64,000 nucleotides of DNA, taken from the NCBI GenBank assembly GCA_937928775.1, contig CALFVI010000014.1, forward strand, positions 21,028 through 85,027, given 5' to 3'. The position numbers and the translations under genes were made by a program. Below, in pieces: positions 6,246 through 48,404 of the stretch. How positions within the stretch are numbered: the stretch's first letter is position 1; each line of letters begins with the position of its first letter. This DNA is from an uncultured Elioraea sp. Lineage in GTDB: Bacteria > Pseudomonadota > Alphaproteobacteria > Acetobacterales > Acetobacteraceae. Under the pieces are notes generated by a model. It was not told the DNA's origin, ran no database searches, and worked only from the letters and a program-made list of their open reading frames with translations.

Positions 6246-6248
6246 GCC

Positions 6249-9852: not shown

Positions 9853-10973
9853 GGGGGGCGATGATGCGTCCGATCGCGATCGCGGCCGGCGGTACGGGCG
9901 GGCATCTCTATCCCGCCGTCGCCACTGCCGCCGCCCTCGCCGAACGCGGTGAGCGCGTCGTCTTGCTGACTGATCGACGCACGGCGGAGCGCTCGACGGC
10001 CGCCTTCGATGCGGCCGAGATCCACGTGCTCTCTGGCGAAGGCATCGCGGGGCGCGGGATTGCTCGACTGCCAGGCGCCCTTGCCTCATTGGCGATTGGC
10101 GCGATCGAGGCGCGCGCGATCCTCGACCGCCTGGCGCCGGCGGCCATCGTCGCCTTCGGCGGCTATCCGTCCGTCGCACCGGTTCTGGCTGCGCGCGCGC
10201 TTGCACGGAAACACCGCCTGCGTGTCGTCCTGCACGAGCAGAACGCCGTGCTCGGCCGGGCCAATCGCCTGCTCGCCCGCGTCGCCGACCTGCTCGCCCT
10301 CTCCTTCGCGGAGACCGCGCGCGTACCGGCAAGGAGGCGAACGGCCCTGATCGGCACCCCCATCCGGCCCGAGATCGCGACGCTGACGGCGCACGCCTAT
10401 GCACCGCCGGATGCCGGCGGGCCTGTCAGGCTTCTCGTGCTGGGCGGCAGCCTCGGCGCGCGCGTCTTCGCCTCCCTCTTACCCGACGCGATCGCGCTCC
10501 TGCCGAGCCCGTTGCGTGATCGTCTCGTTCTCACCATGCAATGCCGAGCGGAGGATATCGCGCAGGCTGAGGGAACCCTGCGAGGGCTCGGGGTGCCGTT
10601 TCGCCTCGCCCCCTTTTTCGACGACATCGCAGCGCTCTACGCGGCGGCGCATCTCGTGATCTGCCGCGCCGGAGCGTCCACGGTTGCGGAGTTGGCCTGC
10701 GCCGGACGCCCCGCCCTTCTCGTGCCCTATCCTCACGCGACCGACGACCACCAGAGCGCGAATGCGCGTGCGCTTGCCGCCGCCGGGGCGGCGGAGGCCT
10801 TGGACCAGTTGACTCTGACGCCAGCCATGCTCGCTGAGCGGATCACCACCCTCCTCGGCTCCCCCACCCGCCTCGAGGCGATGGCCGAGGCAGCGCGCCG
10901 CTTCGCCCGCCCGAACGCCGCGCACGATCTGGCTGCGGCCGTGCTCGCGCTCGCGCCGACGGAGACCCATTGA
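9849..10973 (+). CDS. murG: UDP-GlcNAc:undecaprenyl-PP-MurNAc-pentapeptide transferase MurG
   Basis: [27 protein letters not shown] and [10 protein letters not shown] motifs. Exact start ambiguous (9849, 9861 or 9864). Confidence 0.95.
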
Positions 10974-12415
10974 TGCGCGCCCTTCCCATCTCCATCGGCA
11001 CCATCCACTTCGTCGGCATCGGCGGCATCGGCATGTCCGGCATCGCCGAGGTGCTGCACAATCTCGGCTATCGCGTGCAGGGCAGCGACATCGCTGAGGG
11101 CTACACGGTAAAGCGCCTGCGCGAGCTCGGCATCCCCGTCACCATTGGCCACGCTGCTGAGAATTTGGGCGAGGCGCAGGTCGTCGTCGTCTCGTCGGCG
11201 GTGAAGCGCGACAACCCCGAGGTGGTCGCTGCCCGCCAGCAGCTGATCCCCGTCGTGCGGCGGGCGGAAATGCTCGCTGAACTGATGCGGCTCAAATGGT
11301 CGATCGCGGTCGGCGGCACGCACGGCAAGACGACGACGACGAGCCTCATCGCCGCCGTGCTGGAGGCCGCCCATCTCGATCCGACGGTGATCAACGGCGG
11401 CATCGTCAACGCCTACGGGTCGAACACGCGGCTTGGTTCCGGCGACTGGATGGTGGTGGAAGCGGACGAGTCGGACGGCTCCTTCCTGCGCCTGCCTGCG
11501 CTGATCGCGGTCGTGACCAACATGGATCCCGAACATCTCGACCACTGGGGCACCGCCGAGGCGATGAAGGAGGGCTACGTCCAGTTCGTTGGCAACATCC
11601 CCTTCTACGGCTTTGCGGTGCTCTGCCTCGACCATGCCGAGGTGCAGGCGATGATCCCGCGGCTCGCTGACCGGCGTATTATCACCTACGGCTTCTCGCC
11701 GCAGGCCGACGTGCGCGCCGAGAAACTGGTGATGGATAGGCTCGGTGCGACCTTCGAGGTGGTGGTCTCGGACCGCCACGGCGGGCGCACGCGGCGCCTC
11801 AAGCCGTTCCGCCTGCCCATGCTCGGTGCGCACAATGTGCAGAACGCGCTTGCCGCGATCGCGGTGGGCGTGGAGATGGACATTGCGGAGGACGTCATCC
11901 GCTCCGCCCTGCTCGGCTTTAAGGGGGTGAAGCGACGCTTTACCCGCGTGGGCGAGGTGGGCGGCATCACCATCATCGACGACTACGGCCACCACCCGGT
12001 GGAGATCGCCGCCGTGCTGAAGGCGGCGCGCCAGGCCGGCGCGCGTGAGGTGATTGCGGTGGTGCAGCCGCATCGCTACACGCGGGTCGCCTCACTGTTC
12101 GAGGAGTTCTGCACCTGCATGAACGACGCCTCGACGGTGATCGTCGCCGACATCTACCCGGCGGGAGAACAACCGATCCCGGGCATCGATCGCGACGCGT
12201 TGGTCGATGGGCTGATCGCGCGCGGGCATCGTTCGGTGGTTGCCCTGCCGGATCCCGCGCATCTCGCCGAGATGGTGCACGCCATCGCCAGGCAGGGCGA
12301 CTACGTGGTCTGTCTCGGTGCCGGATCGATCACGCATTGGGCGCATGCGCTGCCGCGCGAGCTTGCCGCGCTGCAGGCGTCGATCCCGCGCCGCGCTGGT
12401 GGGAGTGGATCGTGA
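10973..12415 (+). CDS. murC: UDP-N-acetylmuramate--L-alanine ligase MurC
   Basis: [34 protein letters not shown] and [10 protein letters not shown] motifs. ATG at 10973 preferred over the TTG at 10970. Confidence 0.96.
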
Positions 12416-31344: not shown

Positions 31345-32271
31345 TTGCTTCTCCGCCGAATCCTTGAGGCCTGCGCCTGGCACGGCTCTGCGCTGCTCGG
31401 GGCTTCGATCTTCCTCGGCCTATTCGCCCCGCCGCTCGCGCGCGCAATGCGGTTCGTCATCACGCCGACGGTGGTGGGGCTGATGACTCTGGTGCTGCTG
31501 CGCGTCGACTTCGCCGCCGTGTTCGGCTACTTGCGCCGGCCTGCGCTCGTGTTGTGGCTCGTGTTGTGGCTGATGGTGGGCGCTCCCCTGCTCACCTGGG
31601 CCATGGTTCGGCAAGCTCGCTTCGACGGCGCGCTTGCCGAGGCGGTGGTGATCATGGCGACGGGGTGTGCCGCAACCTCTGCCCCCGCCTTCGCCCGGCT
31701 GGTTGGGCTCGATCCGCAGCTCTCCCTGGTCGCCTCTGTCCTGTCCACCCTCATGGTGCCGTTTACCGCGCCACCGCTTGCCTTGGGCCTGGTCGGCGTC
31801 GCCCTGCCGCTGACCATCGGCGGCTTGTCGGCACGGCTTGTCCTGGTCGTCGGCCTGCCGCTGCTGCTCAGCCTCGCCATTCGCCGTTTCGCCGGTGAGC
31901 AGCGGCTCAGACCGTGGGGACGGGCGATCGACGGCGCCGCGGTTCTGCTGGTCGCGCTCTACGGGGTTGGGGTGATGGACGGGATTCTCGCCGGCTTTCT
32001 CGAACGTCCGCGGTTTATGGCTCTGGCGCTGGCTTTGGCCTTCCTCGCCAACTACGGGCTGAACGCGGCGACCGCCCTCGCCTTCCTCCCCTTCGGACGC
32101 AGGATCGCGCTGGCGACCGGGCTTTTGTCCGGCAATCGCAACATGGCGCTGTATCTTGCTGTGCTGCCGCCCGAGACCGGGTTCGACATCCTTGCCTTCT
32201 TCGCGCTGTGCCAGTTTCCCTTGTTTCTCAGCCCCTTCCTGCTCAAGCCCCTCTACCGCCGGCTGGTTTGA
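31345..32271 (+). CDS. bile acid:Na+ symporter (BASS)-like integral membrane transporter
   Basis: About 9 hydrophobic segments and a BASS-like organisation (ATGCAATSAPAFARLVGLDPQLSLVASVLSTLMVPF; LATGLLSGNRNMALYLAVLP). TTG start. Confidence 0.65.
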   Translation: MLLRRILEACAWHGSALLGASIFLGLFAPPLARAMRFVITPTVVGLMTLVLLRVDFAAVFGYLRRPALVLWLVLWLMVGAPLLTWAMVRQARFDGALAEAVVIMATGCAATSAPAFARLVGLDPQLSLVASVLSTLMVPFTAPPLALGLVGVALPLTIGGLSARLVLVVGLPLLLSLAIRRFAGEQRLRPWGRAIDGAAVLLVALYGVGVMDGILAGFLERPRFMALALALAFLANYGLNAATALAFLPFGRRIALATGLLSGNRNMALYLAVLPPETGFDILAFFALCQFPLFLSPFLLKPLYRRLV

Positions 32272-32402
32272 CCCGGAGAGTGGGAGAGGTGCCTTTGCTG
32301 CACCGCGGCAGATTGCCGAGGCGACGAGACCGACCTAATCTGACAGGGCCGTGAACGAGAGGGGAGGGGCGGGACGCGCCCTGAGGCCCGGGGAGAGCCG
32401 CC

Positions 32403-33719
32403 ATGAACGAGATGTCGAATCCCGCCGCACAGACGGTGACCATCACGGTCGATGGAACCAACCGCTCGGCCATCCTGCCGGTGATTTCGGGCACGCTTGG
32501 CCCCTCGGTGATCGACATTCGGCGTCTCTACCAAGAGCTCGGCATGTTCACCTACGACCCCGGGTATGGCGCGACGGCAGCGTGCGAGAGCACCATTACC
32601 TACATCGACGGGGAACAAGGGATTCTCCTGCACCGCGGCTATCCGATCGAGCAGCTTGCCGAACAGTGCACCTTTCTTGAGGTTGCGCACCTCCTCCTGT
32701 ACGGCGAACTGCCGTCCAAGGCACAATATGACGCGTTTTCGCGCACGATCACGCGCCATACGATGATCCATGAGCAGCTGCGGCGGTTCTTCGACGGGTT
32801 CCGCCGCGACGCCCACCCGATGGCGGTGCTGACCGCGGTGGTGGGCGCGATGAGCGCGTTCTATCCGGACTCGAGCGACGTCAACGATCCGCGTCAGCGC
32901 GAAATCGCCGCACATCGGTTGATCGCGAAGGTGCCGACCATCGCTGCCTGGGCGTACAAATACTCCATCGGTCAGCCGTTTATGTATCCCCGCAACGATC
33001 TCAGCTACGCTGAAAACTTCCTCTACATGCTCAATGCGGTGCCGACCGAGCCCTATGTGATCAATCCTGTGCTTGCGCGGGCCATGGATCGCATCCTGAT
33101 CCTGCATGCGGATCACGAGCAGAATGCCTCAACCTCGACCGTGCGGCTCGCGGGCTCCACCGGGGCGAACCCCTTCGCCTGCGTGGCTGCGGGCATTGCC
33201 ACCCTCTGGGGGCCGGCCCATGGCGGAGCGAACGAGGCGGTGCTGAAGATGCTGGCCGAGATCGGCTCAGTCGACCGGATCCCGGAATTCATCGCCAAGG
33301 TGAAGGACAAAAATAGCAACGTCAGACTGATGGGCTTCGGGCATCGCGTATACAAGAATTACGATCCGCGCGCCAAGATCATGGCGAGAACCTGCCGCGA
33401 GGTCTTGGCCGAGCTTGGCATCGAACACGAGCCTTTGCTGGAAATCGCTATGGAGCTCGAACGGATTGCTCTCTCCGACGAGTACTTCATCAGCCGCAAG
33501 CTCTATCCGAATGTCGATTTCTATTCCGGAATCATCCTCAGGGCGATGGGCTTGCCGACCAGCATGTTCACCGCCCTGTTCGCAGTCGCACGCACGGTGG
33601 GTTGGATCAGCCAGTGGAAGGAAATGATTGGCGACCCATCGCAGCGGATCGGACGACCGCGCCAGGTTTACACGGGGGCGACACAACGGGACGTCATCCC
33701 ACTCGCCGAACGCGGCTGA
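32403..33719 (+). CDS. gltA: citrate synthase (type I, hexameric)
   Basis: [56 protein letters not shown] and [17 protein letters not shown]. Confidence 0.97.
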
Positions 33720-34101
33720 GAGGCGACACGCCTCCAGATCTCCGGTCGATCGTCGAAACCTACACCCTCAGTCAGGCTCGCCGCGAGGAGACCGTCCCAC
33801 CGCGCGAGGCGGACTCAAGCGACGACGCATTGTCTGCCAAGACTTGACGGCGACTCACCAGCCGGGCAAAGGTTACGTTGCGAGATCGTGTTGTCCACAC
33901 GATCCACAGGCGCGGCCTAGGGCCGATTTCCAAGCTTTGCCGCCGATTGCAGCGAAGCCTGACCGGTTTTCCAGGTTTCGACTCACAGGCTGACACATGC
34001 GCCACCCGCGGCGGCAGAGCGTGAATTTTCTATCTTAGGTTGATACCCCCCGCTTGCACTTTTCCGACGGTTGTATTCAGAATGCGTGCCGGAGGTATGG
34101 A

Positions 34102-34776
34102 ATGCACCCTCCTGGAGGCAGCCCCATGGAACGGTACGCGAGCCTGGATGCTCTGGTCCGCCATCAGCTGCGGAAATGGCCCCAACATCCCCCCGGGCTC
34201 TGGACACGTCTCAACGGCACACCGCGGGTCCTGCGCGGCCGTCCGGCCGATGCCACGAACGCCGTTTCACCCTTTCTCAAGATTCCGGGCTCGGACCGCC
34301 TGAAGACCCTGCCGGATGGGATGTGGCTTCAGTTCGGCGGCACCCCCGCCGAGCCCTGGTGCGACGTGGTCGCGATCGAAGCCTGCTCCTCGTTCCAAAA
34401 CCTGCTCGACAAGAGGGCCAGGTTCGCCCCGTCGACCCACTCCCTCCTCGTCGTCTGTCCACTGCCTTGGCTTCTTGCCTCCGCCAGCGGTGGAGACCCC
34501 ACACCGCGCTGGCGTCTGACGGGGATTTTCGATACGGAACCGACCGGGCCACTGACCTTGCCGGTGCGCGATGTGCGCGTGCTCTACGGTCTGAAGGACA
34601 AGCACTTCCAGCCCTTCGTCCAGAGCCAGGTGCCGCACGCCCATGAGTTCTTCTGCCCGATGACGGCACTGACCGCCGAGAGGGGCTATGAGGCGCCGGC
34701 CATGCAGGCCCTGCTCAGCCGGCTTTCGACCACCGCCAACTTCTACGAACTGCCACCCGAACGTTCAGCCGGCTGA
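34102..34776 (+). CDS. conserved hypothetical protein, possible PD-(D/E)XK-like core
   Basis: Open frame with Shine-Dalgarno sequences and PWCDVVAIEACSSFQNLLDKRARF motif. Start may be 34102 or 34126. Confidence 0.6.
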   Translation: MHPPGGSPMERYASLDALVRHQLRKWPQHPPGLWTRLNGTPRVLRGRPADATNAVSPFLKIPGSDRLKTLPDGMWLQFGGTPAEPWCDVVAIEACSSFQNLLDKRARFAPSTHSLLVVCPLPWLLASASGGDPTPRWRLTGIFDTEPTGPLTLPVRDVRVLYGLKDKHFQPFVQSQVPHAHEFFCPMTALTAERGYEAPAMQALLSRLSTTANFYELPPERSAG

Positions 34777-35685
34777 ACCGATCGCCATCGGCAGCGCGAT
34801 CCCATAGCGCGCGAGCACGGACCGGGCCCGATCCGGATAGTCAGTGATCAACCCGGCGACACCCCAATCGATCAGGCGCGCCATCTCGACTGGCCCGTTC
34901 ACGGTCCACGGGATCACCGCGACCCCGAGGGCGCGCGCCTCTGCCACCATGGCAGCGGTAAGATCTCGATGGTCCGGCGACCACACGGTGCCGCCCGCTG
35001 CGCGCACAACCGCCGGAATGGAACCGCCGTGCGCCCGCGGATCGAAGCCGGCCAACCAGGGCGAGGGTGCCGATCCGCACGGGGCAAGCGTGCGCGCACT
35101 GGTCAGGTATGAGGTCTTGATCGCCGGTTGGTGGCATTGCACCCAGAGCAGACTGCGCCAGTCAAACGACTGCACCATGGCCCGCTCCGCCACCCCCTCC
35201 GCGACCAGTACGCAGACCAGTCGCTCCGCCATCTCTTCAGGAGAGACCGTAAGGTCGGGACGGTCGGGAAAGAGTTTGGTCTCAATATTGAACCGGACGT
35301 GATCAGCGCCGCATGCCTTGGCGAGCGCGATCACCTCAGAGAGCGAGGGGATGCGTTCGCCGTCGACGGGGCACTGGTCGGGAAACAGCACTGCGGTGCG
35401 GCTGCCAGGCTTGAGACGCCCGACATCGTAGCGGCGGAGCTCTTCAAAGGTGAGGCTGCGAATCGCAGGACCCGCTGTATCGAGCCAAGCCCCGTCTGGC
35501 CCCCGGGTGAGGTCCGGGTTCAACACCGGATCATGGCTGACGACGACCACACCATCGGCCGTCACCGCGATGTCCATTTCCAGCGTGCTGACGCCGATGG
35601 CGAGCGCCCGGGAGAAGCCCGCGAGGGTATTCTCGGGGGCAAGCCCGCGCGCCCCGCGGTGGCCTTGCAGGTCAAAGACGCGCAT
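34765..35685 (-). CDS. glycerophosphodiester phosphodiesterase family protein
   Basis: QGHRGARGLAPENTLAGFSRALAIGVSTLEMDIAVTADGVVVVSHDP and VIPWTVNGPVEMARLIDWGVAGLITDYPD. Confidence 0.94.
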   Translation of the reverse strand: MRVFDLQGHRGARGLAPENTLAGFSRALAIGVSTLEMDIAVTADGVVVVSHDPVLNPDLTRGPDGAWLDTAGPAIRSLTFEELRRYDVGRLKPGSRTAVLFPDQCPVDGERIPSLSEVIALAKACGADHVRFNIETKLFPDRPDLTVSPEEMAERLVCVLVAEGVAERAMVQSFDWRSLLWVQCHQPAIKTSYLTSARTLAPCGSAPSPWLAGFDPRAHGGSIPAVVRAAGGTVWSPDHRDLTAAMVAEARALGVAVIPWTVNGPVEMARLIDWGVAGLITDYPDRARSVLARYGIALPMAIGSAG

Positions 35686-35732
35686 CTCACGCGCCGCTTG
35701 CGCGTCGCCGGCTGATTGCGCCTCTCAGCCTC

Positions 35733-35972
35733 TCAATCGCACGGACAGCCAGGAGTCGGGCCTGTGCTCTCGCGTACCACGTGATGGTCGATCCATTCGG
35801 CGACCAGCCTGCGCGCCTCGTTCACCGAAGCTTCGGGGTGATGGATCCGGTAGAGGATGGTGCAGGCGCGGAAGGCCTCGGGATCGCCCGTTCCGTGGGC
35901 GCGCAACTCGCGATAGGCCGAAACGACGGCCCGTTCGCAACGCCGCGCGATGTAGCTGAAATCTCGCCCCAT
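35733..35972 (-). CDS. small hypothetical protein (79 aa)
   Basis: Compact ORF with GGAGGG just upstream of the ATG; plausible helical composition. No recognised domain. Confidence 0.5.
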   Translation of the reverse strand: MGRDFSYIARRCERAVVSAYRELRAHGTGDPEAFRACTILYRIHHPEASVNEARRLVAEWIDHHVVRESTGPTPGCPCD

Positions 35973-36098
35973 CGACCCTCCGCCCTCACCACGTATCGGT
36001 CACTCTCTCCCGTCGCGGCCCAACTGAGAATGAATCGCAACGCAAGTGCGAGTGTAGGCCACGAAGAGAGGCGATTCAACCGTCGGCGCTCAGTGCGC

Positions 36099-37165
36099 TC
36101 AATCGGACAGACTGGCGGCGATCGCCTCCCCGACCTCCCGCGCGCCCGCCCCAACGCCGAGGTCGCGTGCGCAGCCCCGCGGCAAGCACCTGTTCGATCG
36201 CACGCAGGATCATGGCTGCCGCGCCGGTCTCGCCGAGATGGTCGAGCATCATCCCTCCGACCAGATCTGGGTGATCCGCACTTCCACCCGCCTGCCAGCA
36301 ATGTCGGGAGCTGAACCGTGCACCGGTTCGAACAGCGAGGGAAAGCGCCGTTCGGGGTCGGTGTTCGCCGAAGGCGCCTCCCCGACCGAGCCTGCCAGCG
36401 CAGCACCAAGGTCGGACAGGATGTCGCCGAAGAGATTGGAGCCCACCACGACGTCGAACCAGTCCGGGTGCTGCACAAAGTGCGCACACAGGATGTCGAT
36501 GTGGAACTGGTCCTGTCGCACGTCAGGACATGTCTGGCCGATTGCCGCGATGTGCTCGTCTCACCAGCGCATGGTGAGGGTGACGCCTTCGACTTGGTCG
36601 CGCCGGTGAGGTGCTTCTTCGGCCGAGAGCGCGCGAGTGTGATCGCGTTGCAGAGGATCCGATCGACGCCGAGGCGGGTGAACACGCTCTCCTGGACGAC
36701 GAACTCCCGCTCCGTGCCAGCGAACATACGCTCGCCGACAGGCGAGGACTCGCCCTCCGTGTTTTCGCGAACGACGATGACATCGATGTCCTCGGGCCCG
36801 CGCCCAGCCAGGGGGCTGCGCATGCCTGGAAGCAAGCAAACGGGGCGGAGGTTCACGTACTGGTCGAAGCTGCGGCGGATCGGAATCAACAGACCCCAGA
36901 GCGAGACGTGGTCGGGCACCCCCGGCCAACCGACCGCGCCGAGAAAAATCCCATCCGCCTCGCGCAGGCGCTCGAGAGCATCCTCGGGGATCAGCGCACC
37001 GGTCGTCAGCGAGGGGCCGCAAGACCAGTCGTATTCGGTGCAGTCGAAGGAAAAGCCAAAGCGGCGCCCGGCAGCTTCCAGCACGCGCGCCCCTTCGGGC
37101 ACAATCTCGCGCCCGATGCCGTCGCCCGGGATCACCGCGATGGCCTAGCGGCAGTCGCTGGCCAT
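36099..37165 (-). pseudogene. tartrate / D-malate / isopropylmalate-type dehydrogenase pseudogene
   Basis: Family-typical segments fall in successive frames: IPGDGIGREIVPEGARVLEAAGRRFGF..., QDQFHIDILCAHFVQHPDWFDVVVGSNLFGDILSDLGAALAGS...RRFPSLFEPVHGSAPDIAG, GMMLDHLGETGAAAMILRAIEQVLAAGLRT, DLGVGAGAREVGEAIAASLSD*. Three frame changes (about 36587, 36255, 36175), an in-frame TAG near the N-terminus, and a TGA at 36561-36563. Confidence 0.9.
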
Positions 37166-37335
37166 GAAACGCCCCCACAGTATGCGGCTGGGTGAACCAA
37201 CCCTGGGCGGGAGGCGCGATCGCGTCAATCGGCCGCCGGCGTTACCCTGCCTCATCACCGCGGCACCACCATTCTTCTTCAGACGAAAAACGCCGCGGCT
37301 CATTGGCGCACGCGCGACCCTCGTCCCTCGAGGCT

Positions 37336-37621
37336 TCAGTGCAGGTGCGGCGCCGCGCCCGCATGACCAGCAACAAGGCCGCACACCTTCTCCAGGTACC
37401 GCCTGACCTACCCGGGCTTGCTCTGTGCGCACAATGCGAGCGGGATCTTGCGGTGGAAATCGTCGGAGTCGTCGAGACGCTGGCGAACGATCTCCTCCAA
37501 GCATCGCATCGCGCAGAAGGACACGGGCCGGATCGGCCTCTTGCATTTCGACCCAAATCACCTCGTTGCAGAAGCGGCGCAGAACCGCGTCAAGCGGAAG
37601 CGTAACGTCTTGCTTAGACAT
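37336..37621 (-). pseudogene. decayed short ORF of unknown function
   Basis: MSKQDVTLPLDAVLRRFCNEVIWVEMQEADPARVLLRDAM, then a frame change to LEEIVRQRLDDSDDFHRKIPLALCAQSKPG, TAG at 37408-37410, then VRRYLEKVCGLVAGHAGAAPHLH*. Confidence 0.5.
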
Positions 37622-37671
37622 GGCCATCGCAGCGGCGCGCCAAGGCCCCATCGCTTCACCATGCCGGAGGG

Positions 37672-40600
37672 CTATACCCGCGCAGGGTCGAGCCTTGTCT
37701 GCCGGCCAGGTGAAGGGGCAGGGGCCGGCGCACGGGTGGTCGCGGTGCCGTTCGGCTGCACTGGCAACCGACGGTCCCCGCGAGCGGCCTCGATTTCGCG
37801 CATGATCGTGGCGACGAGTGCATCCGCCGCGCCGTCGGGGTTGCTGAACCAGTCGGTGGACCATACGCGCACGATGCGCCAGCCAAGCCGCTTCAGGTTT
37901 TCCTCGCGTAGCCGATCGCGGTCTCGCACGCAGCGCGCGCGGTGGTAGGTGGCGCCGTCGCACTCAATCCCGACCACGTACCGCGTCGGGTCGTCCGGGT
38001 CGCGCACGGCGAGGTCGATGCGATAGCCTTGCACGCCAAGCTGAGGGACGACGTCGAAGCCGCGCGCGATCAGAGTGCGCCTCACCGCCTCCTCGAACGG
38101 GCTCTCTGGGCTGCCTGTCGTGCCGTCCGTCCTTGCTGGCAATACACCACCCTCGCGCGCATAGGCGAGATAGTCGCGCAGAATGCGTACGCCGCGCGCC
38201 TTGCCGTCGGCCAAGATCTCTTCCGGCTCCAGCGAGGCAAACAGGACGATTTTCGCGCGGGCACGAGTGAAGAGCACGTTGAGACGACGATCCCCATCGG
38301 CGTTGCGCTGGATCGGCGCGAATCGTTGATGCAGCACACCTTCTTCGGTCCTGCCGTAGCCGAGCGAGATCAGCACCACGTCGCGTTCGTCACCCTGTAC
38401 GTTCTCGAGGTTCTTGACGAAGAATGGCTCGCGCGGGCTCGCACGCTCCTCCCAGGCATCGAGGTAGCAGCGCAGAGCGTCATTTCGCGTCGCCTGCACA
38501 TCGATCTCGCGTCGGATCAGGTCCGCTTGCGCCACGTTCATGGCCACCACACCCATGCTCAAATCCGGGCGCCTGGCCGCCCGCGCCACCACCTCGGCGA
38601 CGATGGCCCGGGCCTCCTCGATGTTTACTCTCCGGCCCTCGCCGCCCCGCCAGAGGCCGCCCACCTGCCGAAGCTCGACACCCAAATCCTCGCCCGGCTC
38701 CGCAGCAGCGGGAAAGACAACGAGCTCGTCGTCGTAGAAGTGCCGGTTGGAGAAGGCGATCAGCGACTGGTGGCGGGAACGGTAGTGCCACAGCAGGCGC
38801 CGCTTCGGGGCAAAGGCACGCGCGGCTAGGTCGAGAACGGACTTCGCGCCTTCCGGCGCATCCTCTTCGTCATCCTCCTCGCCGTCAAACAGTCGCTCGA
38901 AGAAGTCGGTTGGCGGCAGCTGCTTCGGATCACCCACAATCACCGTCTGACGACCGCGGAGCAGCGACCCGAAAGCGTCTTCGGGCCTGATCTGCGAGGC
39001 CTCGTCCATCACGATGAGATCGAACGCATCAGATCGCGCCGGCAACAGCTCGGCGACGGAGAGGGGCGACATCATCACGCACGGGAAAAGAGTCGTGACT
39101 GCATTGAAGGCCCGATCCATCAGCCTCCGCAGCGGAATGAAACGTTTCCTTTTGGTCAATTCATGGTTGATCAATGCCATCTCGGTCCAGTCCGCGCGCG
39201 GGCCGCTCGCCGACCCGGACGGCGGGGTGCGCGCGAGCAGTGCCTCACGCAGCCGCGCGGCGTTCGCATCAAGCAACGCAGCATCGGCGCGGCGGAAACG
39301 CTCGCGCATCTGCTCGAGATCGTCGCCGCCAAGGCAAAGGATTTTCCCCGCCTTTGCCCCGTGCAGCGAGGCTGCACGATGCGCCACGCACCAGGCAAGC
39401 GCCGTGGTCAAACGATCGGGCGCGATCCACCCCGCCTCGGCCGCTGCGGCAAGGGGCCCGGCCAAGGGGTGTTCGCGTGCGGCCTCAAGACGCTTGCGCC
39501 AATGCACAGTCGGCAGGATCAGGGCGCGCTGCGCAATCAGCTGTTCCATCCGCCGCAGCACATCCTGAAACGACTCCGACGGTTGCGGACCCAGCGCTAC
39601 AGCGCCGATCTCGCGCAGTGCCTCTTCCGCTCCGCTTAGCCTGTTGAGCGCCACCTGAAGGCTGCGCGTCGCCGAGGCGATTTCGGCCCTTTGTGCCGCA
39701 TCCCCTGCGAGCAGGGCGGCAGCCCCCTCGGGGATCACGTCGTGGACCTCGCGGGCGCGGGCGATCGCCTGCTCCGCCGCAACCAAGGCCTGCTCGTCCG
39801 CCAGCGCCTCCGATCCGAACAGTACGGGCCAGAGCGGATCTGTGCGCGCATGGTCTTCTGCATCGAGCTGCCGCAACGCCTCCGCCACGCGGCTTGCCTC
39901 ACCGATCGCCAAACTGAGCGGTAGGCCGAGCGCACGCGCCAATTGACGCATTTTTTCGATGCGTTCGAGCCGCCCTGCCGCGCTCTCGATCACCGCATCG
40001 ACTCCGCCCGTGCCGTCTGATCGAGCAAGCGCCTCGCGCAGGGGGGCAAGAGCTGGCGCCGCTGCGGCGAGGCCTCGGAAATCCTGCTCCGGCAGCGCGA
40101 TGAGTTGGCGAAGAAGCGATCGCGGCACGCCCGCACGCTCACTCTCGGCCAATGTCGCCTGCCACTGAGCGGCCTCGGCGAGAGCGGCGATGGGAAGCCG
40201 ACGCGGATCCCTTACGTTCTCGCAATGACGGCGGATGACGTCCCGTGCCGCGAGCTCGGCGCCCTTCTCGATCGCAGCCAGGGCGTCGTGCAACAGCTCC
40301 GCCGCGCGGCGCGGCTTTGGCAAATCAGTTGCGCCGGCCCATAGCTGGCGCAACACCCGACGCGCCTCGCGCCCGCGCGATGTCCAGCCGGTCATCAGCC
40401 GCCAGGAGGTGAAAACACGGCACGCCGTCACGAGTTGCGCACGATCGAGGACCAACAGACGATCCACGTCCAACTCCAACGCGAGCTTTCTGAACCGATC
40501 GATCAGTTCGTCGTGCGCCGCGAGCGTCTCGCGTAGAGCTCCAGCATCGCGTTCAAGTCCTTGGCGTCGCAAGCCGATGGCGGCTTCCGGCAACTGGGAA

Positions 40601-42939
40601 GCGAGCTGCGCTAGGTGAATCAGGAGCGCTGCGTCGCGCTGCGAGAGGCTGCGATGGTCAACACCGAGAGGCTCGGCGACCTCGGTGCGCAGGTGGTCGA
40701 CCGCATTGCGCAGAGCCTGATCGTCGTCGCGCGCAGCCTCTGCGATGGTCTCCAGATCACCGACTTTGGTCTCTGCTGGCAGCTCCACCTCGCGCACGAG
40801 TTGGGCAAAGTCGGAGAAGGCTGCACGATCAATGTTTTCCGGAATGCCGCACTCGTGAAGCAGAGCGCGTGCTGCGCGTCCGGCACGTGCATGCCTGATC
40901 AGCGCGTCTGCCTGTCGCACGCGAGCGGGGTCAACGAACAAATCTGTCGCGAGAGAGGGCGGCTCATTCAGCTTGTCGACGACCGTATCGAGCCGGCAAC
41001 AGAGGTCGCGTGCCGCGGCCACGGTCGCCTTCGGCGCGCAGCCCAAAGCCCTGGCGAGGCAAAGGATCGCGTTCTCAGCTGCCTCGACTGCTTGACGCAA
41101 CTCCTCGAGCCGACCGACCAGAGCCTCGGCCGCGTCCGCGTTCGGCTCGGCAAGGCGAACGGCCCGGAATGGGCTTTCGTGCGCCGCCACGCCGAGTTCG
41201 ACGAGGGAGAGGGCGGCTCTCGCCATTCCGTCGACGAGCCGTTCCGCTTCAGCGACGGCGGGACCATCAATCTCGGCCGGGAAACGACGGAGAACCTCTC
41301 TGAAGCTCGCTCGTTCCGCGGCATTTGGCCGATGCAGGAGGCTCTGCCCGACGAGATCGACGAAACACTCGCCCCGCGGTCCGACAGGCCTGCTGGTGGC
41401 CGCTACGTACTCGCGCAACACGGCGGCTGCCTCGGTCACATCGTTGCGGTCTGCCGATGCCTTGTGGGGAGCAGCACTTTGGGCAAGTCGCCGTTCGATC
41501 CGCTCGATCACTGACTTCGGCTGTGCTTCAGGCCCATGCAGGGGCAGCGCGAAGGCGTCGAGCCCCCGTTCGGCAAGCCGATTCAACACCACCTCCAGGG
41601 CAGCGCGCTTCTCGGAGACGAACAGCACCCGTTTCCCGGCGCCGATTGCGTTTGCGATCAGGTTGACGATGGTCTGCGATTTGCCAGTGCCGGGCGGCCC
41701 CTCGAGCACGAAGCTCCGCCCCTCCATCGCGTCGATGATCGCCGCGTGCTGGCTGGAGTCGGCATCGGTGATCAGGTAGGGCGTGAGCGCGGCCTTCGCT
41801 GCGTCCTCGACGTCGATCTCTGTCGCCCGCGCATCAATGCTCGCTGTTCCGACGCCGCGCAGCAGGGCAAAAACGAGCGGATGCGCCGCGGGCTCACCAC
41901 TCCGCCACTGGGCCGCATCGAGATCGCGCCAGATCGCGAAGCGCGCGAAGGAGAGCGGAGCGAGCGTCAGAGAAGGCTCGACGGACCATCCCTTGCGCGT
42001 GGAGGCAAGCTCTTTCGTATCCAAAAGGAACTTCCTCGTCGCCGCCCAAACATCGCCCTCCTCGGAGAGGAGCGGCGGCAAGGCAAGGGCGAAATCCTTG
42101 CGCAGTCGCTCCGCCAGCGTTTCGTTGCGTTCAACCTGTTCACCCTCCGCCCGCAGGAGAAAAAGCGGGCCGCGGGAGCGTGGATCCGTTTTGCGCTCCA
42201 GCGCGACGGGTAGAAGGAGAAGCGGCGAGACGTTGCGCGCCGTGCCCCCCTCCGACTCGGGCCAGTGCAGAAGACCGATGACGAGCTTCAGGATCTCGAT
42301 GCCGCGCTCCTCCCGGGCCGAGCGGGCTTTTCGCAGCAGGGCCTCAGCGCGCCCCTGCAGGTCTTTGCCGAACAAGAGAGTTTGCAGGGCCAGCGGTGTT
42401 GCCCGCCCCGGACCGTTTTCCGGCCGGCTCCCTGTCGGCTGCGGCGGTTCAAGCGGGAGCGTGTACGATGTCGGCAAACCATGTTGCCTGGCGACGACAA
42501 GAGGGTCGGCACGTCGTGCGACGACACGCTGCGGCAGCCCAAGGTCGCGACGCACGGCGGCACGCAACTCGCCTTCGATCCGATCCAAATCCGCTTCAGC
42601 GGTGGCGTCATCTTCGCCGCGCGCGAGTGCGCTCTGCCAGTCTGCGGAGAGAGCTTTCCGCTCCTCGAGCCTGCTTAGGAACTCCGGTGTCTGCTCTTCG
42701 GGCGGAACCGTCTCCTCTGGCGGGTCTGGAACCTCCGCAAGCGGGATGGCCCGTCCCGCCAACAATTCCTGCAGGGCCTCGCGCAGGGATGGAGCGGTGA
42801 AGCGAAGAACGCTGCTGCGGGAACTGAGGCGCAGGTGAATGAGGCCATTGCGCCGCCCGAGATCGAGCACCCGTGTGCGCCACCACTCAAGATCCTTCGC
42901 TGCAAGGGCGATGTCGGTCTGGGATGGGCGGAATGACAT
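37672..42939 (-). CDS. DUF4011-type SF1 (COG1112/UPF1-like) helicase with C-terminal Vsr/REase_MTES_1575-like nuclease domain
   Basis: N-term LEWWRTRVLDLGRRNGLIHL; Walker A LEGPPGTGKSQTIVNLIANAI; Walker B DEASQIRPEDAFGSLLRGRQTVIVGDPKQLPPT; helicase motifs LFTRARAKIVLFAS; nuclease-like SPFEEAVRRTLIARGFDVVPQLGVQGYRIDLAVRD...VVGIECDGATYHRARCVRDRDRLREENLKRLGWRIVRVWSTDWFSNP. Start placed at Met 42939. Confidence 0.88.
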   Translation of the reverse strand: MSFRPSQTDIALAAKDLEWWRTRVLDLGRRNGLIHLRLSSRSSVLRFTAPSLREALQELLAGRAIPLAEVPDPPEETVPPEEQTPEFLSRLEERKALSADWQSALARGEDDATAEADLDRIEGELRAAVRRDLGLPQRVVARRADPLVVARQHGLPTSYTLPLEPPQPTGSRPENGPGRATPLALQTLLFGKDLQGRAEALLRKARSAREERGIEILKLVIGLLHWPESEGGTARNVSPLLLLPVALERKTDPRSRGPLFLLRAEGEQVERNETLAERLRKDFALALPPLLSEEGDVWAATRKFLLDTKELASTRKGWSVEPSLTLAPLSFARFAIWRDLDAAQWRSGEPAAHPLVFALLRGVGTASIDARATEIDVEDAAKAALTPYLITDADSSQHAAIIDAMEGRSFVLEGPPGTGKSQTIVNLIANAIGAGKRVLFVSEKRAALEVVLNRLAERGLDAFALPLHGPEAQPKSVIERIERRLAQSAAPHKASADRNDVTEAAAVLREYVAATSRPVGPRGECFVDLVGQSLLHRPNAAERASFREVLRRFPAEIDGPAVAEAERLVDGMARAALSLVELGVAAHESPFRAVRLAEPNADAAEALVGRLEELRQAVEAAENAILCLARALGCAPKATVAAARDLCCRLDTVVDKLNEPPSLATDLFVDPARVRQADALIRHARAGRAARALLHECGIPENIDRAAFSDFAQLVREVELPAETKVGDLETIAEAARDDDQALRNAVDHLRTEVAEPLGVDHRSLSQRDAALLIHLAQLASQLPEAAIGLRRQGLERDAGALRETLAAHDELIDRFRKLALELDVDRLLVLDRAQLVTACRVFTSWRLMTGWTSRGREARRVLRQLWAGATDLPKPRRAAELLHDALAAIEKGAELAARDVIRRHCENVRDPRRLPIAALAEAAQWQATLAESERAGVPRSLLRQLIALPEQDFRGLAAAAPALAPLREALARSDGTGGVDAVIESAAGRLERIEKMRQLARALGLPLSLAIGEASRVAEALRQLDAEDHARTDPLWPVLFGSEALADEQALVAAEQAIARAREVHDVIPEGAAALLAGDAAQRAEIASATRSLQVALNRLSGAEEALREIGAVALGPQPSESFQDVLRRMEQLIAQRALILPTVHWRKRLEAAREHPLAGPLAAAAEAGWIAPDRLTTALAWCVAHRAASLHGAKAGKILCLGGDDLEQMRERFRRADAALLDANAARLREALLARTPPSGSASGPRADWTEMALINHELTKRKRFIPLRRLMDRAFNAVTTLFPCVMMSPLSVAELLPARSDAFDLIVMDEASQIRPEDAFGSLLRGRQTVIVGDPKQLPPTDFFERLFDGEEDDEEDAPEGAKSVLDLAARAFAPKRRLLWHYRSRHQSLIAFSNRHFYDDELVVFPAAAEPGEDLGVELRQVGGLWRGGEGRRVNIEEARAIVAEVVARAARRPDLSMGVVAMNVAQADLIRREIDVQATRNDALRCYLDAWEERASPREPFFVKNLENVQGDERDVVLISLGYGRTEEGVLHQRFAPIQRNADGDRRLNVLFTRARAKIVLFASLEPEEILADGKARGVRILRDYLAYAREGGVLPARTDGTTGSPESPFEEAVRRTLIARGFDVVPQLGVQGYRIDLAVRDPDDPTRYVVGIECDGATYHRARCVRDRDRLREENLKRLGWRIVRVWSTDWFSNPDGAADALVATIMREIEAARGDRRLPVQPNGTATTRAPAPAPSPGRQTRLDPARV

Positions 42940-43159
42940 CTGCAGACTGCGCCGGTCGCGGGTACAACCCTGGATTATGTTCTTCCGCCCTTTTTCTCGC
43001 ACGCGCGAAGCGCTCCCCACAATACGTCGGTTTCGGACGAGTCTCCTATCGCTCCTGCCCTGTTACCGTGCAGGACGACGGTTCAGCGCACGCGCTGCTG
43101 TACGCTTGACCGCGCCCGGGCGGCGGCTGAGAAACGCGGTGCTTGGGAGGAAAAAGCCG

Positions 43160-44113
43160 ATGACACGACGCCGCACCCTGCTTGCCGCCGCAGCCCTTGC
43201 CCCCTTCGCGTCGCGCGCCCAGGCCCAGGCCTATCCCTCGCGCCCGATCCGCCTCATCGTCGCCTACCCGCCAGGCGGGTCGACCGACCTCCTCGCGCGC
43301 GCCTTCGCCGAACGCCTCTCCGCGCGCTTCAACGGTGCGGCGGTGGTGGTGGAGAACCGCGCTGGAGGCGGCGGCATCGTCGGCACCGTGGCCGCAGCGC
43401 AAGCGCCGGCAGACGGCTACACGCTGACCCTCGGCAACAACCAGACCCACGCCTCGAATCAGGCGATGATGCGCGTGTTGCCTTACCACGTGCTCGACAG
43501 TTTCGCCCCCATCGCGCGGCTCGCCTCGGTGCCGCATGCGATCATCGTTCCTGCGTCCGGCGCGCGAACGATCGCGGAACTGAAGGCGAAGGGGCGAGTG
43601 ACATACGCCTCCTCCTCCGTGGGCAGCGCAAGCCACGTCATCGGCGAAGGGATCGCGCGCCGTTTCGGTATCGAAGCAACCCACGTGCCCTATCGCGGCG
43701 CCGCCCCCGCCACCCAGGACACGGTCAGCGGTGTGGTCGACTACTACGTCTCCACCCTGCCGACCATGATGCCGCTGTTGCGCGAAGGCCGCGTGCGCGC
43801 GCTCGCCATCGGCTCTGCCGCGCGGCACCCAGACCTGCCCAACGTGCCCACCTTCGAGGAGATCGGAGCGCAAGGGCTTGCGGTAGATGCCTGGTTTGGG
43901 CTGTGGGCGCCTGCCGGTACGCCGGAACCGATCATCACCAAACTCGGCGAGGCGGCGGTGGCGATCGTCAGCGAAACCGGGATGAGGGAGCGGCTTGCTG
44001 CGATGGGCTTCGTCTCTGCCCCCCTCGGCCCGGCCGAGTTCGCCCGCTTCCAACGCGAGGAAGTTGCGCGCTGGGCCGCACTCGCCGAACTTACTGGCAT
44101 TCGCATGGAATAA
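43160..44113 (+). CDS. Bug/TctC family tripartite tricarboxylate transporter substrate-binding protein
   Basis: Signal peptide MTRRRTLLAAAALAPFASRAQA, then YPSRPIRLIVAYPPGGSTDLLARAFAERLS and VVVENRAGGGGIVGT. Confidence 0.93.
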   Translation: MTRRRTLLAAAALAPFASRAQAQAYPSRPIRLIVAYPPGGSTDLLARAFAERLSARFNGAAVVVENRAGGGGIVGTVAAAQAPADGYTLTLGNNQTHASNQAMMRVLPYHVLDSFAPIARLASVPHAIIVPASGARTIAELKAKGRVTYASSSVGSASHVIGEGIARRFGIEATHVPYRGAAPATQDTVSGVVDYYVSTLPTMMPLLREGRVRALAIGSAARHPDLPNVPTFEEIGAQGLAVDAWFGLWAPAGTPEPIITKLGEAAVAIVSETGMRERLAAMGFVSAPLGPAEFARFQREEVARWAALAELTGIRME

Positions 44114-44117
44114 GGCT

Positions 44118-44888
44118 GTGATCCTTAACCCGACCGACGACGGCGGCGGCATCGCTATCCCCCAGCCCGCCCATGCCTGGATCTCCGCCCAGTTCGCGCA
44201 CGCCTGGGGAGGGACAGTGGCGGGGGTCGAGCGTCTCGACGAGACGTTGATCCTCGCCGTCGAGCAGCACGATATCGGCTGGCATGCGCTCGAGCGGGCG
44301 CCCTTGCGCGACCCCGCCACTGGCAGGCCGTACGACTTCATCACCCTGCCGCGGCCTGTGCACACAGCGCTCTGGTCGGACGGCGTGGCGACGGCGGAGG
44401 CCTGCTACGGAGCAGAGGTGGCGCTGCTGATTTCGCGGCACGGCCGTGCGGTCTATGCGCTGACGCCGGACGAGGCGAGGAGTGCTGAAGACCGGGCCGC
44501 GATTGCGCGCTTTCGTGCCGAACAGGATGCCGTCGAGGCGCGGCTGCGGCCGAGAGTCCCGCACGATGATGCAACCCTGGCCGAACGCGCGCGGCTTCTC
44601 TTCCTGTTCGATCTGCTCGCCCTCGTCGCCTGCGGCGCCTTCGGCGAAGGCGAGAAGCGCGCGCCGCCCGTCCGCCTGCACAATGCCGATGCACGCCTTG
44701 CACTCCGTTTTCAGACCGATCCGAACCGGCTTGAGATCGCGCCGTGGCCGTTCCGCGAGCGGCGCTTCGAGGTCGCCTGCCGAGCCCGCCGCCTCCCCGC
44801 CATCACCTTCGCCGACGAGGCGGCGATGCGCGAGACTTTGCGCGACGCGGACGAGTTCGAACACCGCGTCGCCGTCACGCCGTGCTAG
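44118..44888 (+). CDS. DUF3891 family protein
   Basis: QPAHAWISAQFAHAWGG and LAVEQHDIGWHALERAPLRDPATGRPYDF are typical of DUF3891. GTG start. Confidence 0.8.
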   Translation: MILNPTDDGGGIAIPQPAHAWISAQFAHAWGGTVAGVERLDETLILAVEQHDIGWHALERAPLRDPATGRPYDFITLPRPVHTALWSDGVATAEACYGAEVALLISRHGRAVYALTPDEARSAEDRAAIARFRAEQDAVEARLRPRVPHDDATLAERARLLFLFDLLALVACGAFGEGEKRAPPVRLHNADARLALRFQTDPNRLEIAPWPFRERRFEVACRARRLPAITFADEAAMRETLRDADEFEHRVAVTPC

Positions 44889-45331
44889 CCCACCTTCTCC
44901 CACCCCGTCTTTGTCTGCCGCCAGTAGGTCAGCGCGTGGCCCGCCGCCTTGGCACGACGCCAACGCTGGCGCGCCGCGGCCACCGCCGACTCGTCGTTGC
45001 CGTCGAACAGGTCGAACACGCGATCGAACCGATCGAGTATCGCGCTCTCCGCGCCTTCGACGAGGAACAGGTGGCGCGCGCCGTTCGGTGCCTCATCTGC
45101 CGTGGTGAGCCAAATCGGCTGCAGATCGGCCTCTCCCGTCGCGGCGGAGCCGTGCGGCAGCCAGTCCGGGTCAGGAGACAGCCACAGCGCGGTGTCGATG
45201 GCCGCGATCCGCTCCGTTGTCACGGCCTTCACCACCGCCCGCTCGCCGGATGCGAGCACGCGGCCGAGCAGTTTCGGCAACGCAACTTCGAGCGCGGTGC
45301 GGGTGAGGTGATAAAAGCCGATCTCGGCCAT
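44885..45331 (-). CDS. holC: DNA polymerase III chi subunit HolC
   Basis: MAEIGFYHLTRTALEVALPKLLGRVLASGERAVV...LFLVEGAESAILDRFDRVFDLFDGNDESAVAAARQRWRRAKAAGHALTYWRQ; next to pepA as in other Alphaproteobacteria. Confidence 0.88.
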   Translation of the reverse strand: MAEIGFYHLTRTALEVALPKLLGRVLASGERAVVKAVTTERIAAIDTALWLSPDPDWLPHGSAATGEADLQPIWLTTADEAPNGARHLFLVEGAESAILDRFDRVFDLFDGNDESAVAAARQRWRRAKAAGHALTYWRQTKTGWEKVG

Positions 45332-45341
45332 CGTTCGGCCC

Positions 45342-46769
45342 TTACGCGTCGGCGTCCTCGAAGCGGAGCGTGACCAGCCGATCGAGCAGCCGCGCACCGA
45401 ACCCAGACGCACCGCGAGAGCCAAGATCGCCATCCTCGGCGCGGAGATCCACTCCGGCGATGTCGAGATGCACCCAGGGCGTATCGGCGACGAAGCGCTT
45501 GAGGAAGATTGCGGCATGGCAAGCATCCGGCTGCAACCGCTCGGCCACGCAATTCTTCACCTCCGCGATGTCGCTTTTCAAAGCCTCAGCATACGCCTCA
45601 TTGAGCGGCATCGGCCAGACGGGTTCATCGACCTCCTCTCCCGCTGCCGCGAGATGGGTGGCCAGAGCGGCATCGGAGGCGAACATGCCGGCGCGATGGT
45701 TGCCGAGCGCCACCACGATCGCGCCCGTGAGCGTGGCGAGATCGATCATCGCCGCCGGCGCGTAGGCGATGCGCGTCCAGGCGAGGCAGTCGGCAAGCAC
45801 CAGCCGCCCTTCCGCATCCGTATCGATCACCTCAATCGTGGTGCCGTCCACCGCACGCACCACATCCGATGGTCGTTGCGATTCCGCTCCAATCATGTTC
45901 TCAACGAGACCGAGCACGGCGATGGCGGGGCAAGGCGACCGACGCCGCGCGAGCGCCAGGATCGCGCCTGCACAAGCCGCCGCACCCGCCATATCGGCGC
46001 GCATCTCCCACATCCTGTCGGCCGGTTTGAGGTCCACGCCCCCGGTATCGAACGTCACCCCCTTGCCGACGAAGGCGATCGGCGCGCGATCGAGCCCGCC
46101 CTTCCAGCGCAGCACGGCGAGGCAGGGCCGGTTGGCGGAACCCCGCGCGACGCCAAGCAGCGCCCCAAACCCGCGGCGGGCGAGCCAGTCGCGGTCGTGG
46201 ATCTCGACCTCGACCCCCTCCTCGGCGAGGCCGCGCAAGCGCGCAGCGAACGCTGTCGGTGTCAGCCGGTTTGCGGGCTCGGAGACGAGATCGCGGGCAA
46301 ACAAGGTTCCCGCCACGCCGGCCGAAAGCGTTTCCCACACCGCACCGGCATCGCGCTTGGCCTCAGTCAGCACCTCGAGGTGCTTAAGCCGCGGCAGCGG
46401 TTCGGCTGCATCGGTGCGGGTCTTCAGCCGGTCGAACCGCCAGGCGCGCAGGTTGGCGCCGACTGCCGCTTCCGCCGCGAGTTCCGGCGCAAGCCCAAGA
46501 GCTTCGACGACAAGCCGTTTCTCGGTGATCGCCGCGCCGGCCGCCCGCCCCGCAGCAGCGCGCACAGAGAAGGCGTCCGCCCGCGCGCCGAGCCCCGCGA
46601 GCACGACCAGACGCCCGGTTGCGTCCCGCCCCACGGCCACTTCGTCCGCCCTGCCGGCGAAGCCGAGCGTGCGCGCCAGCGGATCGCCGGCTGCTTGGTC
46701 GATTGTAAGGAGCCGGGCGCGTGCGGCCTTTGGGTGCCGATCGCGCCTGCAGAAGCGGACCGAGAGCAT
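45342..46769 (-). CDS. leucyl aminopeptidase family protein (M17), divergent paralogue
   Basis: KGVTFDTGGVDLKPADRMWEMRADMAGAAA and DTDAEGRLVLADCL metal/active-site motifs. Start placed at Met 46769. Confidence 0.9.
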   Translation of the reverse strand: MLSVRFCRRDRHPKAARARLLTIDQAAGDPLARTLGFAGRADEVAVGRDATGRLVVLAGLGARADAFSVRAAAGRAAGAAITEKRLVVEALGLAPELAAEAAVGANLRAWRFDRLKTRTDAAEPLPRLKHLEVLTEAKRDAGAVWETLSAGVAGTLFARDLVSEPANRLTPTAFAARLRGLAEEGVEVEIHDRDWLARRGFGALLGVARGSANRPCLAVLRWKGGLDRAPIAFVGKGVTFDTGGVDLKPADRMWEMRADMAGAAACAGAILALARRRSPCPAIAVLGLVENMIGAESQRPSDVVRAVDGTTIEVIDTDAEGRLVLADCLAWTRIAYAPAAMIDLATLTGAIVVALGNHRAGMFASDAALATHLAAAGEEVDEPVWPMPLNEAYAEALKSDIAEVKNCVAERLQPDACHAAIFLKRFVADTPWVHLDIAGVDLRAEDGDLGSRGASGFGARLLDRLVTLRFEDADA

Positions 46770-46800
46770 CGGCCCTGCCGACCCCTCGCCCAATCCGCCG

Positions 46801-48315
46801 TCAGCTCTGCTCGAAGTACTCGGCAACGAACCGATCGAGCAGACGCACGCCGAAGGCGGTGGCCCCTTTCGGCACGCAGGGCTTGTCCTTCGTCGACCAG
46901 GCCGTGCCGGCGATGTCAAGATGTGCCCAGGCCTTGCCGTTGACGAAGCGCTGCAAGAACTGCGCTGCGGTTATTGCCCCACCCGGCCGGCCGCCGATAT
47001 TCTTCATGTCGGCGATGTCGGACTTCAGCATCTTGTCATAGGCCTCGGCGAGCGGCATGCGCCAGAGAAGTTCTCCGGTCGCCTGGCCGGCCGCGATCAG
47101 TTTTTGCGCGAGTTCCTCGTCATTGGAAAAGAGACCGGCATGCTCGTGCCCGAGGCTGATCACGATCGCTCCCGTTAGTGTCGCGAGATCGATCATCACG
47201 CGCGGTTCGAAGCGGTCCTGGCAGTACCAGAGCACATCGGCCAGCACGAGCCTGCCCTCTGCTTCCGTATTGAGGACCTCGACGGTCTGGCCCGAGGCCG
47301 TGGTGACGACATCGCCTGGCCTCTGAGCGGTTCCCGAGGGCATGTTCTCGGCAAGCCCGAGCAAGCCCACCGCGTCCACCTTCGCCTTTCGCCCGGCCAG
47401 TGCAACCATCAGGCCGGCCACGGCGCCCGCTCCGGCCATGTCCCATTTCATCTCCTCCATACCCTGGGCCGGCTTGAGCGACACGCCGCCCGTATCGAAG
47501 GTGATGCCCTTGCCGATGAAGGCAAGCGGCTTGGTGGCCTCGCCTTTGCCCTTGCCCCGCACCTTCGCCGCCTTCGCCTCGGTGCCCGTCGCCCCGCGCC
47601 AGTGCAGCACGACGAGGCGCGGTTCGTTCGCACTGCCCTGGGCGACGCCGAGGAAGGCGCCGAAGCCGAGCTTCCGCATCTCCTTCGGCCCCAGAACCTC
47701 GACCTCGAGCCCGAGCGAGGCGAGACCCTGGCAGCGTTCAGCGAAGGCGGCCGGGGTGAGTACGTTTGGCGGCTCCGTCACCAGCTCACGGGTGAAGAAC
47801 ACCCCCTCGACGACCGCCTTCAGAGGGCCCCAGGCCGCGCGCGCCTTTGCCGGCTCGTCGTGCGCCACGGTAAGGCGCGCGAGTTTCGGCTTCTCCTCGG
47901 GCTTTTCCTTCGTGCGGTAGCGGTCGAAGCGCCAGGCGCGAAGCACCGCCCCCGTGGCCGCTTCGGCGGCCTGGGCCGGGGCGACGGGGCCCGGGTCGAG
48001 CACGGCGGATGGCTCCTGCGCCAAGGCTGCCGCCGCGGTGCCGGCCGCCTCCTCAGTGGCACGGCCTGCCGCCTCGGCCCGCTTGCCCACGCCCACCACC
48101 ACCACCCGCGACAGACCGGCACCGGGGGCGAGGATGGTCACGGTCTCGTTCTTCTTCGCCTTGAAGTTGACGGCGGCGAGCGCCCGCCCGATCGCCCCGC
48201 CTGTGGCGTTGTCAACGGCAGCACGCAGCCCCGAAGGCGGCTCGTCCTCCCCCACCAACAGGGCGAGCGCCCCGGATTCGGGCAGGGCGGGCTTGGCAAA
48301 GCTAACCTCGAGCAT
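46801..48315 (-). CDS. pepA: leucyl aminopeptidase (M17)
   Basis: GKGITFDTGGVSLKPAQGMEEMKWDMAGAGAVAG and NTEAEGRLVLADVLWY motifs. Start at Met 48315 (MLEVSFAKPALPE). Confidence 0.93.
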   Translation of the reverse strand: MLEVSFAKPALPESGALALLVGEDEPPSGLRAAVDNATGGAIGRALAAVNFKAKKNETVTILAPGAGLSRVVVVGVGKRAEAAGRATEEAAGTAAAALAQEPSAVLDPGPVAPAQAAEAATGAVLRAWRFDRYRTKEKPEEKPKLARLTVAHDEPAKARAAWGPLKAVVEGVFFTRELVTEPPNVLTPAAFAERCQGLASLGLEVEVLGPKEMRKLGFGAFLGVAQGSANEPRLVVLHWRGATGTEAKAAKVRGKGKGEATKPLAFIGKGITFDTGGVSLKPAQGMEEMKWDMAGAGAVAGLMVALAGRKAKVDAVGLLGLAENMPSGTAQRPGDVVTTASGQTVEVLNTEAEGRLVLADVLWYCQDRFEPRVMIDLATLTGAIVISLGHEHAGLFSNDEELAQKLIAAGQATGELLWRMPLAEAYDKMLKSDIADMKNIGGRPGGAITAAQFLQRFVNGKAWAHLDIAGTAWSTKDKPCVPKGATAFGVRLLDRFVAEYFEQS

Positions 48316-48404
48316 GCGACTCCCCGTGCAACAACTGTGACACGACTGTAGCAACGGCCAGAGGCTTTGCCAGGGTCAGTTCCGGCACGCTACACGGCGC
48401 GCCC

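Follow-up and report, generated by a model that had tools for sequence, protein, structure and literature searches.

The window, a stretch of 64,000 nucleotides from an uncultured Elioraea species, carries a long gene whose product had been read, from the sequence alone, as a single-gene and probably anti-phage fusion of a DUF4011 domain, a helicase, and a nuclease. This locus raises the question of whether the gene belongs to a known family of defense proteins and, if so, in what state it has been preserved. The gene is a single open frame on the minus strand, spanning positions 37672 to 42939 and encoding 1755 amino acids, with its ATG at 42939 and its stop codon at 37672 to 37674. The plus-strand frame over the same interval is riddled with stops, which identifies the minus strand as the coding strand. 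The features of the locus are as follows.

37672 to 42939, minus strand: DUF4011/SF1 helicase/Vsr-like nuclease gene of the Hhe clade, truncated at its 3′ end (open reading frame, domains, profile matches, and tree).
42103 to 42870, minus strand: DUF4011 domain, residues 24 to 279, with a long internal insertion like that of Hhe (Pfam PF13195, E = 1.2e-24; the Hhe layout is equal).
41677 to 41700, minus strand: helicase motif I (Walker A, GPPGTGKS), residues 414 to 421 (motif inspection and alignment).
39085 to 41532, minus strand: long insertion rich in Ala, Leu, and Arg between motifs I and II, approximately residues 470 to 1285 (alignment and motif inspection).
38257 to 39006, minus strand: motifs II (DEASQ), III (VGDPKQLPP), HYRSRH, V (NVQGDERD), and VI (RRLNVLFTRAR) (alignment).
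37804 to 38097, minus strand: MTES_1575 Vsr-like nuclease domain, residues 1615 to 1712 (Pfam PF18741, E = 5e-34; residue table, AlphaFold2, and Foldseek).
37672 to 37674, minus strand: TAG stop codon that closes the frame; the congener G004 has CAG there and reads on into a C-terminal domain.
37369 to 37588, minus strand: decayed C-terminal domain of Hhe type, present as two halves in two frames with a further stop (PADLOC Hhe profile and HMM).
37166 to 43100, no strand assigned: approximate extent of an inserted segment that the congener G001 lacks, flanked by the divergent genes for tartrate dehydrogenase and TctC (comparison with G001).

The DUF4011, AAA_11, AAA_12, and MTES_1575 domains of the 1755-residue protein each exceed their Pfam gathering scores, and the two halves AAA_11 and AAA_12 define a UPF1-like SF1 helicase. 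The proposed combination of DUF4011, helicase, and nuclease is thus borne out, the motifs quoted for it are present, and the domain search recovers both the DUF4011 and the MTES_1575 domains on which that proposal depended. No DUF3320 domain was found by Pfam in this protein. Helicase motifs I and II normally lie near each other; here, DEASQ occupies residues 1312 to 1316, and the two motifs are ~890 amino acids apart. Because an insertion of varying length is present at this position in all aligned homologs, we regard it as a family trait.

Aligned with 56 homologs, the nuclease domain retains the conserved residues E1616, D1642, E1659, D1661, and H1666. An AlphaFold2 model of the domain (11 sequences, mean pLDDT 84.5) has the predicted order helix-strand-strand-strand-helix-strand-helix, as expected for a restriction-endonuclease-like fold. 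Compact Foldseek matches to this model are the catalytic domain of the homing endonuclease I-Bth0305I (3r3p, TM 0.72 by target length, E = 0.008) and, second, NGO0050 (3hrl, TM 0.72). Since no Foldseek match reaches an E value of 0.001, the modeled fold is supportive rather than decisive. An earlier description of MTES_1575 (PMC3710099) classed it as a REase domain of Vsr type occurring in fusion with an SF1 helicase, and the Pfam match, the retained acidic and histidine residues, and the agreeing fold model uphold the assignment of a Vsr/REase_MTES_1575 nuclease. A fold search with a model of the N-terminal region (mean pLDDT 71.4) gave nothing useful.

Among NCBIfam models, the protein best matches ProA (NF058533, 1012 bits) and then Hhe (NF042953, 945 bits), and it falls under the curated cut-offs of both, which are 1500 and 2000 bits, respectively. 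For reference, Klebsiella Hhe scores 2730 bits on the Hhe model, and the ProA-type protein G007 scores 2430 bits on the ProA model. The best PADLOC matches are PDC-S37 (PDLC05009, 1028 bits) and Hhe (PDLC02194, 694 bits). In a 63-row tree built on the helicase C-terminus and nuclease, the window protein lies inside a 12-row Hhe clade (support 100/99) that also includes Klebsiella Hhe, plasmid proteins from Bradyrhizobium and Qipengyuania, and three IMG/VR contigs; the ProA-like proteins and a large clade with core copies fall outside it. Its sister is G094, a relative from the same family (support 100/98; 57% identity over the tree region), and the terminal branch of the window protein is 0.68 versus 0.39 for G094. 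On these sequence comparisons, the window protein is a distant relative within the Hhe clade but falls short of Hhe proper, as its score stays below the curated NCBIfam cut-off. Relatives are detectable in 41 of the 125 good-quality genomes of the family and in 28 of 152 from the class.

The window genome (2.3 Mb, 81.5% complete; G000) can be placed among its congeners by a core paralog described below, which yields the branching order (G001,(G000,(G004,G005))). G001 has an empty site, wherein an intact tartrate dehydrogenase gene and TctC gene are present and fewer than 200 bases separate the matching blocks. In G005, the flanks are kept and the helicase gene is gone, leaving a short degraded scar with similarity to the tail region (local score 50, compared with a shuffle maximum of 31 and a G001 control of 22). 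In G004 the gene is fragmented: codons 298 and 1251 are stops (the frame of the second is less certain because it follows the frameshifted part), ~489 bases are missing in a large deletion, and there is a one-base frameshift. This series fits a single acquisition before the split of G000, G004, and G005, followed by loss or decay, and we conclude from it that the window gene is accessory and horizontally acquired. Universal synteny, which the sequence-only reading had named among the observations that would speak against it, is absent, given an empty site, a deletion, and a pseudogene in close relatives.

Between the window and G004, dN/dS is 0.32 overall and 0.18 in both DUF4011 and the helicase core, values that understate past constraint because the pair includes a pseudogene; flanking genes give 0.06 to 0.17. 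Over positions 31345 to 48354, the synonymous divergence of the window from G004 runs from ~0.17 (the helicase and an SBF gene) to 0.48 (one of the M17 genes), a spread hinting at recombination between the lineages. Two M17 leucyl aminopeptidase genes lie in tandem at 45342 to 48354 and, judged by predicted start, overlap.

The open frame is not the whole ancestral gene. When the reading frame downstream of the stop is read from G004 (one stop as X), it matches positions 1821 to 1898 of the 1911-position PADLOC Hhe profile (E = 3.8e-8). With an HMM made from the tails of five Hhe-clade members, G004 scores 71.6 bits, and its match shares the frame of the helicase. The window tail is found as two halves in two frames (18.3 and 18.7 bits) that join at one position of the HMM; across 300 shuffles, the top score was 4.7 bits. 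The G004 sequence ARAQPPSHAE corresponds in the window to ARV and a stop, with a one-base gap after it. The window gene has therefore lost its tail, and the ancestral protein was longer. Thus, the earlier description of an intact frame holds for the 1755 open codons and fails for the gene, which is truncated at its 3′ end, and the neighboring “orphan ORF,” taken to be unrelated, is instead the broken remnant of the C-terminal domain of this same gene, as identified by the PADLOC profile and the tail HMM.

An assembly error is a possible source of the truncation, but several successive lesions and a decayed neighbor suggest real decay. That neighbor is the tartrate dehydrogenase gene at 35822 to 37165, which starts at 37165, is interrupted by a stop at codon 7 as well as by frameshifts, and encodes a full-length protein of 356 amino acids in G001; for this gene, the “decayed genes” reported nearby are confirmed. 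We rejected the notion that the insertion cut the tartrate dehydrogenase gene, since the start codon is kept in both G004 and the window.

Two other members of the clade also lack the Hhe-type tail: G094 ends ~26 residues, and G098 ~29 residues, past the start of the WSTDW motif. The tail is therefore dispensable within the clade, and the truncated window protein may still work, given that its closest relative is naturally tail-less. These observations bear on the strongest rival explanation, namely that this is a former defense gene already dead here, killed by the loss of its tail even though the remaining frame is yet unbroken. The stop and frameshifts in the tail, the deletion or breakage of the gene in sister lineages, the decay of the adjoining tartrate dehydrogenase gene, and the long terminal branch noted above are all consistent with such a death. 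However, 1755 codons remain free of lesions, every catalytic motif is kept, and the window protein agrees with the clade at all but 13 of 182 conserved sites, the deviations being mostly mild and never in a catalytic motif. With two naturally tail-less relatives as well, we consider a dead gene possible but doubtful.

The surroundings of the gene differ from those of some of its clade mates. The scanned flanking genes gave no convincing PADLOC match, and a defense island around the window gene was rejected on that basis. A UvrD gene at 28535 to 30754 matches GajB models only as a generic UvrD helicase. A TctC-type receptor gene at 43160 to 44113 is divergent from the window helicase; a different TctC gene is divergent from the core paralog, and another lies near the G094 copy. 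We rejected a functional link between helicase and TctC, as the TctC proteins near the core copies are only ~32% identical to the one beside the window helicase and TctC-like matches are scattered across these genomes, and the proximity of TctC to DUF4011 helicases is probably due to chance.

Among the clade mates, one (L126) lies on a satellite-like contig that also encodes a tyrosine integrase and a primase of D5 type, one is on a conjugative plasmid, and the Qipengyuania plasmid protein is encoded near an Abi-family protein and nuclease genes. In another (L127, positions 1 to 11907), the last base of the helicase gene is the first base of HsdM, followed by a 466-residue ORF and HsdR; the helicase-nuclease is in one operon with a type I R-M system. 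The neighbors of the G098, G142, G094, and G186 homologs gave no PADLOC matches, and a transposase and a serine recombinase lie near the G142 homolog.

We consider it probable that the window gene was acquired horizontally, encodes a stand-alone anti-phage helicase-nuclease within the Hhe clade, and is now on its way to being lost from this lineage. The case is made by the profile matches, the well-supported clade, the nuclease residues and fold, the loss series, and the contexts of the clade mates. Counting against it are the scores under the Hhe and ProA cut-offs, the missing defense neighbors, the lost tail, the breakage of the gene in relatives, and the existence of a core, nuclease-dead clade among diverged homologs. 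The proposal of a single-gene, probably anti-phage function gains support from the Hhe, PDC-S37, and ProA matches, the position in the tree, the patchy distribution, and the clade mates' contexts.

Hhe has been assigned to SF1_Upf1 (PMC10925250). By analogy with this family, the DUF4011/UPF1-like motor would engage the nucleic acid of an invader, most likely single-stranded DNA or replication intermediates. ATP would drive movement or remodeling by the motor, which would bring the tethered Vsr-like domain onto the invader nucleic acid to cut it. The resemblance of the nuclease makes DNA the more likely target, and RNA is a live alternative through helicases of the CoCoNuT type (PMC11090510). 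An RNA-targeting effector of the CoCoNuT sort would share the architecture of type III-B CoCoNuTs, with a UPF1-like helicase, a large insertion after Walker A, and a fused Vsr-like nuclease (PMC11090510), and the nearest PDB sequences to the window protein are SMUBP-2, Sen1, and Dna2. Such an effector is nevertheless unlikely here, because no McrB-type GTPase or McrC partner is present among the neighboring genes scanned (which are metabolic or housekeeping), ssDNA is also a substrate of UPF1-like helicases, and the nuclease model is like a DNA homing endonuclease (3r3p).

A second DUF4011 protein is encoded in the window genome (L041, positions 7618 to 11997 of G000:C38). Within the limits of the contigs, this core paralog and its flanks keep their synteny in congeners (core copies L042 to L046), and the paralog is under strong constraint (dN/dS 0.13 to 0.17). 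It keeps all helicase motifs; E1616, E1659, and H1666 are replaced, IECDG has become IVTDG or ILTDG, and SPFE is lost. The loss of E1616 and H1666 spans a 16-row clade of the family. The window gene was rejected as a recent duplicate of this paralog, as the two are ~32% identical and belong to different clades. P. aeruginosa likewise has a core DUF4011 gene (PMC10250203). The core paralog shows that DUF4011 by itself does not signify defense, and by these comparisons, which include a nuclease-dead core clade, the wider family is not all defensive. Both core genes lend some plausibility to a DNA-repair or other housekeeping helicase-nuclease in the window as well, a reading we find very improbable because close congeners lack the window copy, have deleted it, or carry it broken, and because it clusters with mobile copies and not with the core clade. 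More speculatively, and at long odds, the nuclease-dead paralog may have been co-opted as a protein acting through its helicase alone, in housekeeping or in the regulation of immunity. It would sense the nucleic acid that the mobile active copies recognize and would either partner with those copies or render them redundant, which could in part account for why they are lost time and again.

These findings extend the Hhe defense clade to a distant alphaproteobacterial branch that the curated models miss, and they indicate that the C-terminal domain of the clade is separable, being naturally missing in two relatives and shed in the window. The main points of interest are the captured loss series, in which an acquired defense-type gene is caught at several stages across sister genomes, and the vertically kept nuclease-dead sister, which cautions that a DUF4011 or PDC-S37 match alone does not denote a working defense nuclease.

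Among known systems, Mokosh (MkoA/MkoC) gives matches of only 89 and 69 bits, which reflect the shared helicase core and fall short of a strong profile match. CnuH of type III-B CoCoNuTs shares the UPF1-like helicase, the insertion after Walker A, and the fused Vsr-like nuclease (PMC11090510), but CoCoNuTs are operons with CnuB/McrB-type GTPases, none of which was found beside the window gene. The PADLOC candidate PDC-S37 gives the top PADLOC score for the window protein, and its model scores the nuclease-dead core paralog even higher (1404 bits); the name PDC-S37 therefore does not equate to active defense. ProA has the DUF4011-helicase-nuclease core in common with the window protein, but ProA-type proteins carry an N-terminal extension of ~370 amino acids and a DUF3320 domain and form another clade, whereas the window protein lacks both and begins its DUF4011 domain at residue 24. 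Hhe, exemplified by the gene on Klebsiella plasmid NZ_CP021951 (38375 to 44110), shares with the window protein the N-terminal DUF4011 with a long insertion, the UPF1-like helicase, an MTES_1575 domain with the same residues, the lack of DUF3320, and the same clade, and its C-terminus resembles the ancestral tail of the window gene by the PADLOC Hhe profile. The two differ in that the window protein scores below the curated cut-off and has lost the C-terminal domain; identity to Klebsiella Hhe is ~29% overall and 51% in the helicase C-terminus and nuclease. From sequence, then, the locus is known in kind: not a new type of system, but a distant, truncated relative within a known anti-phage family.
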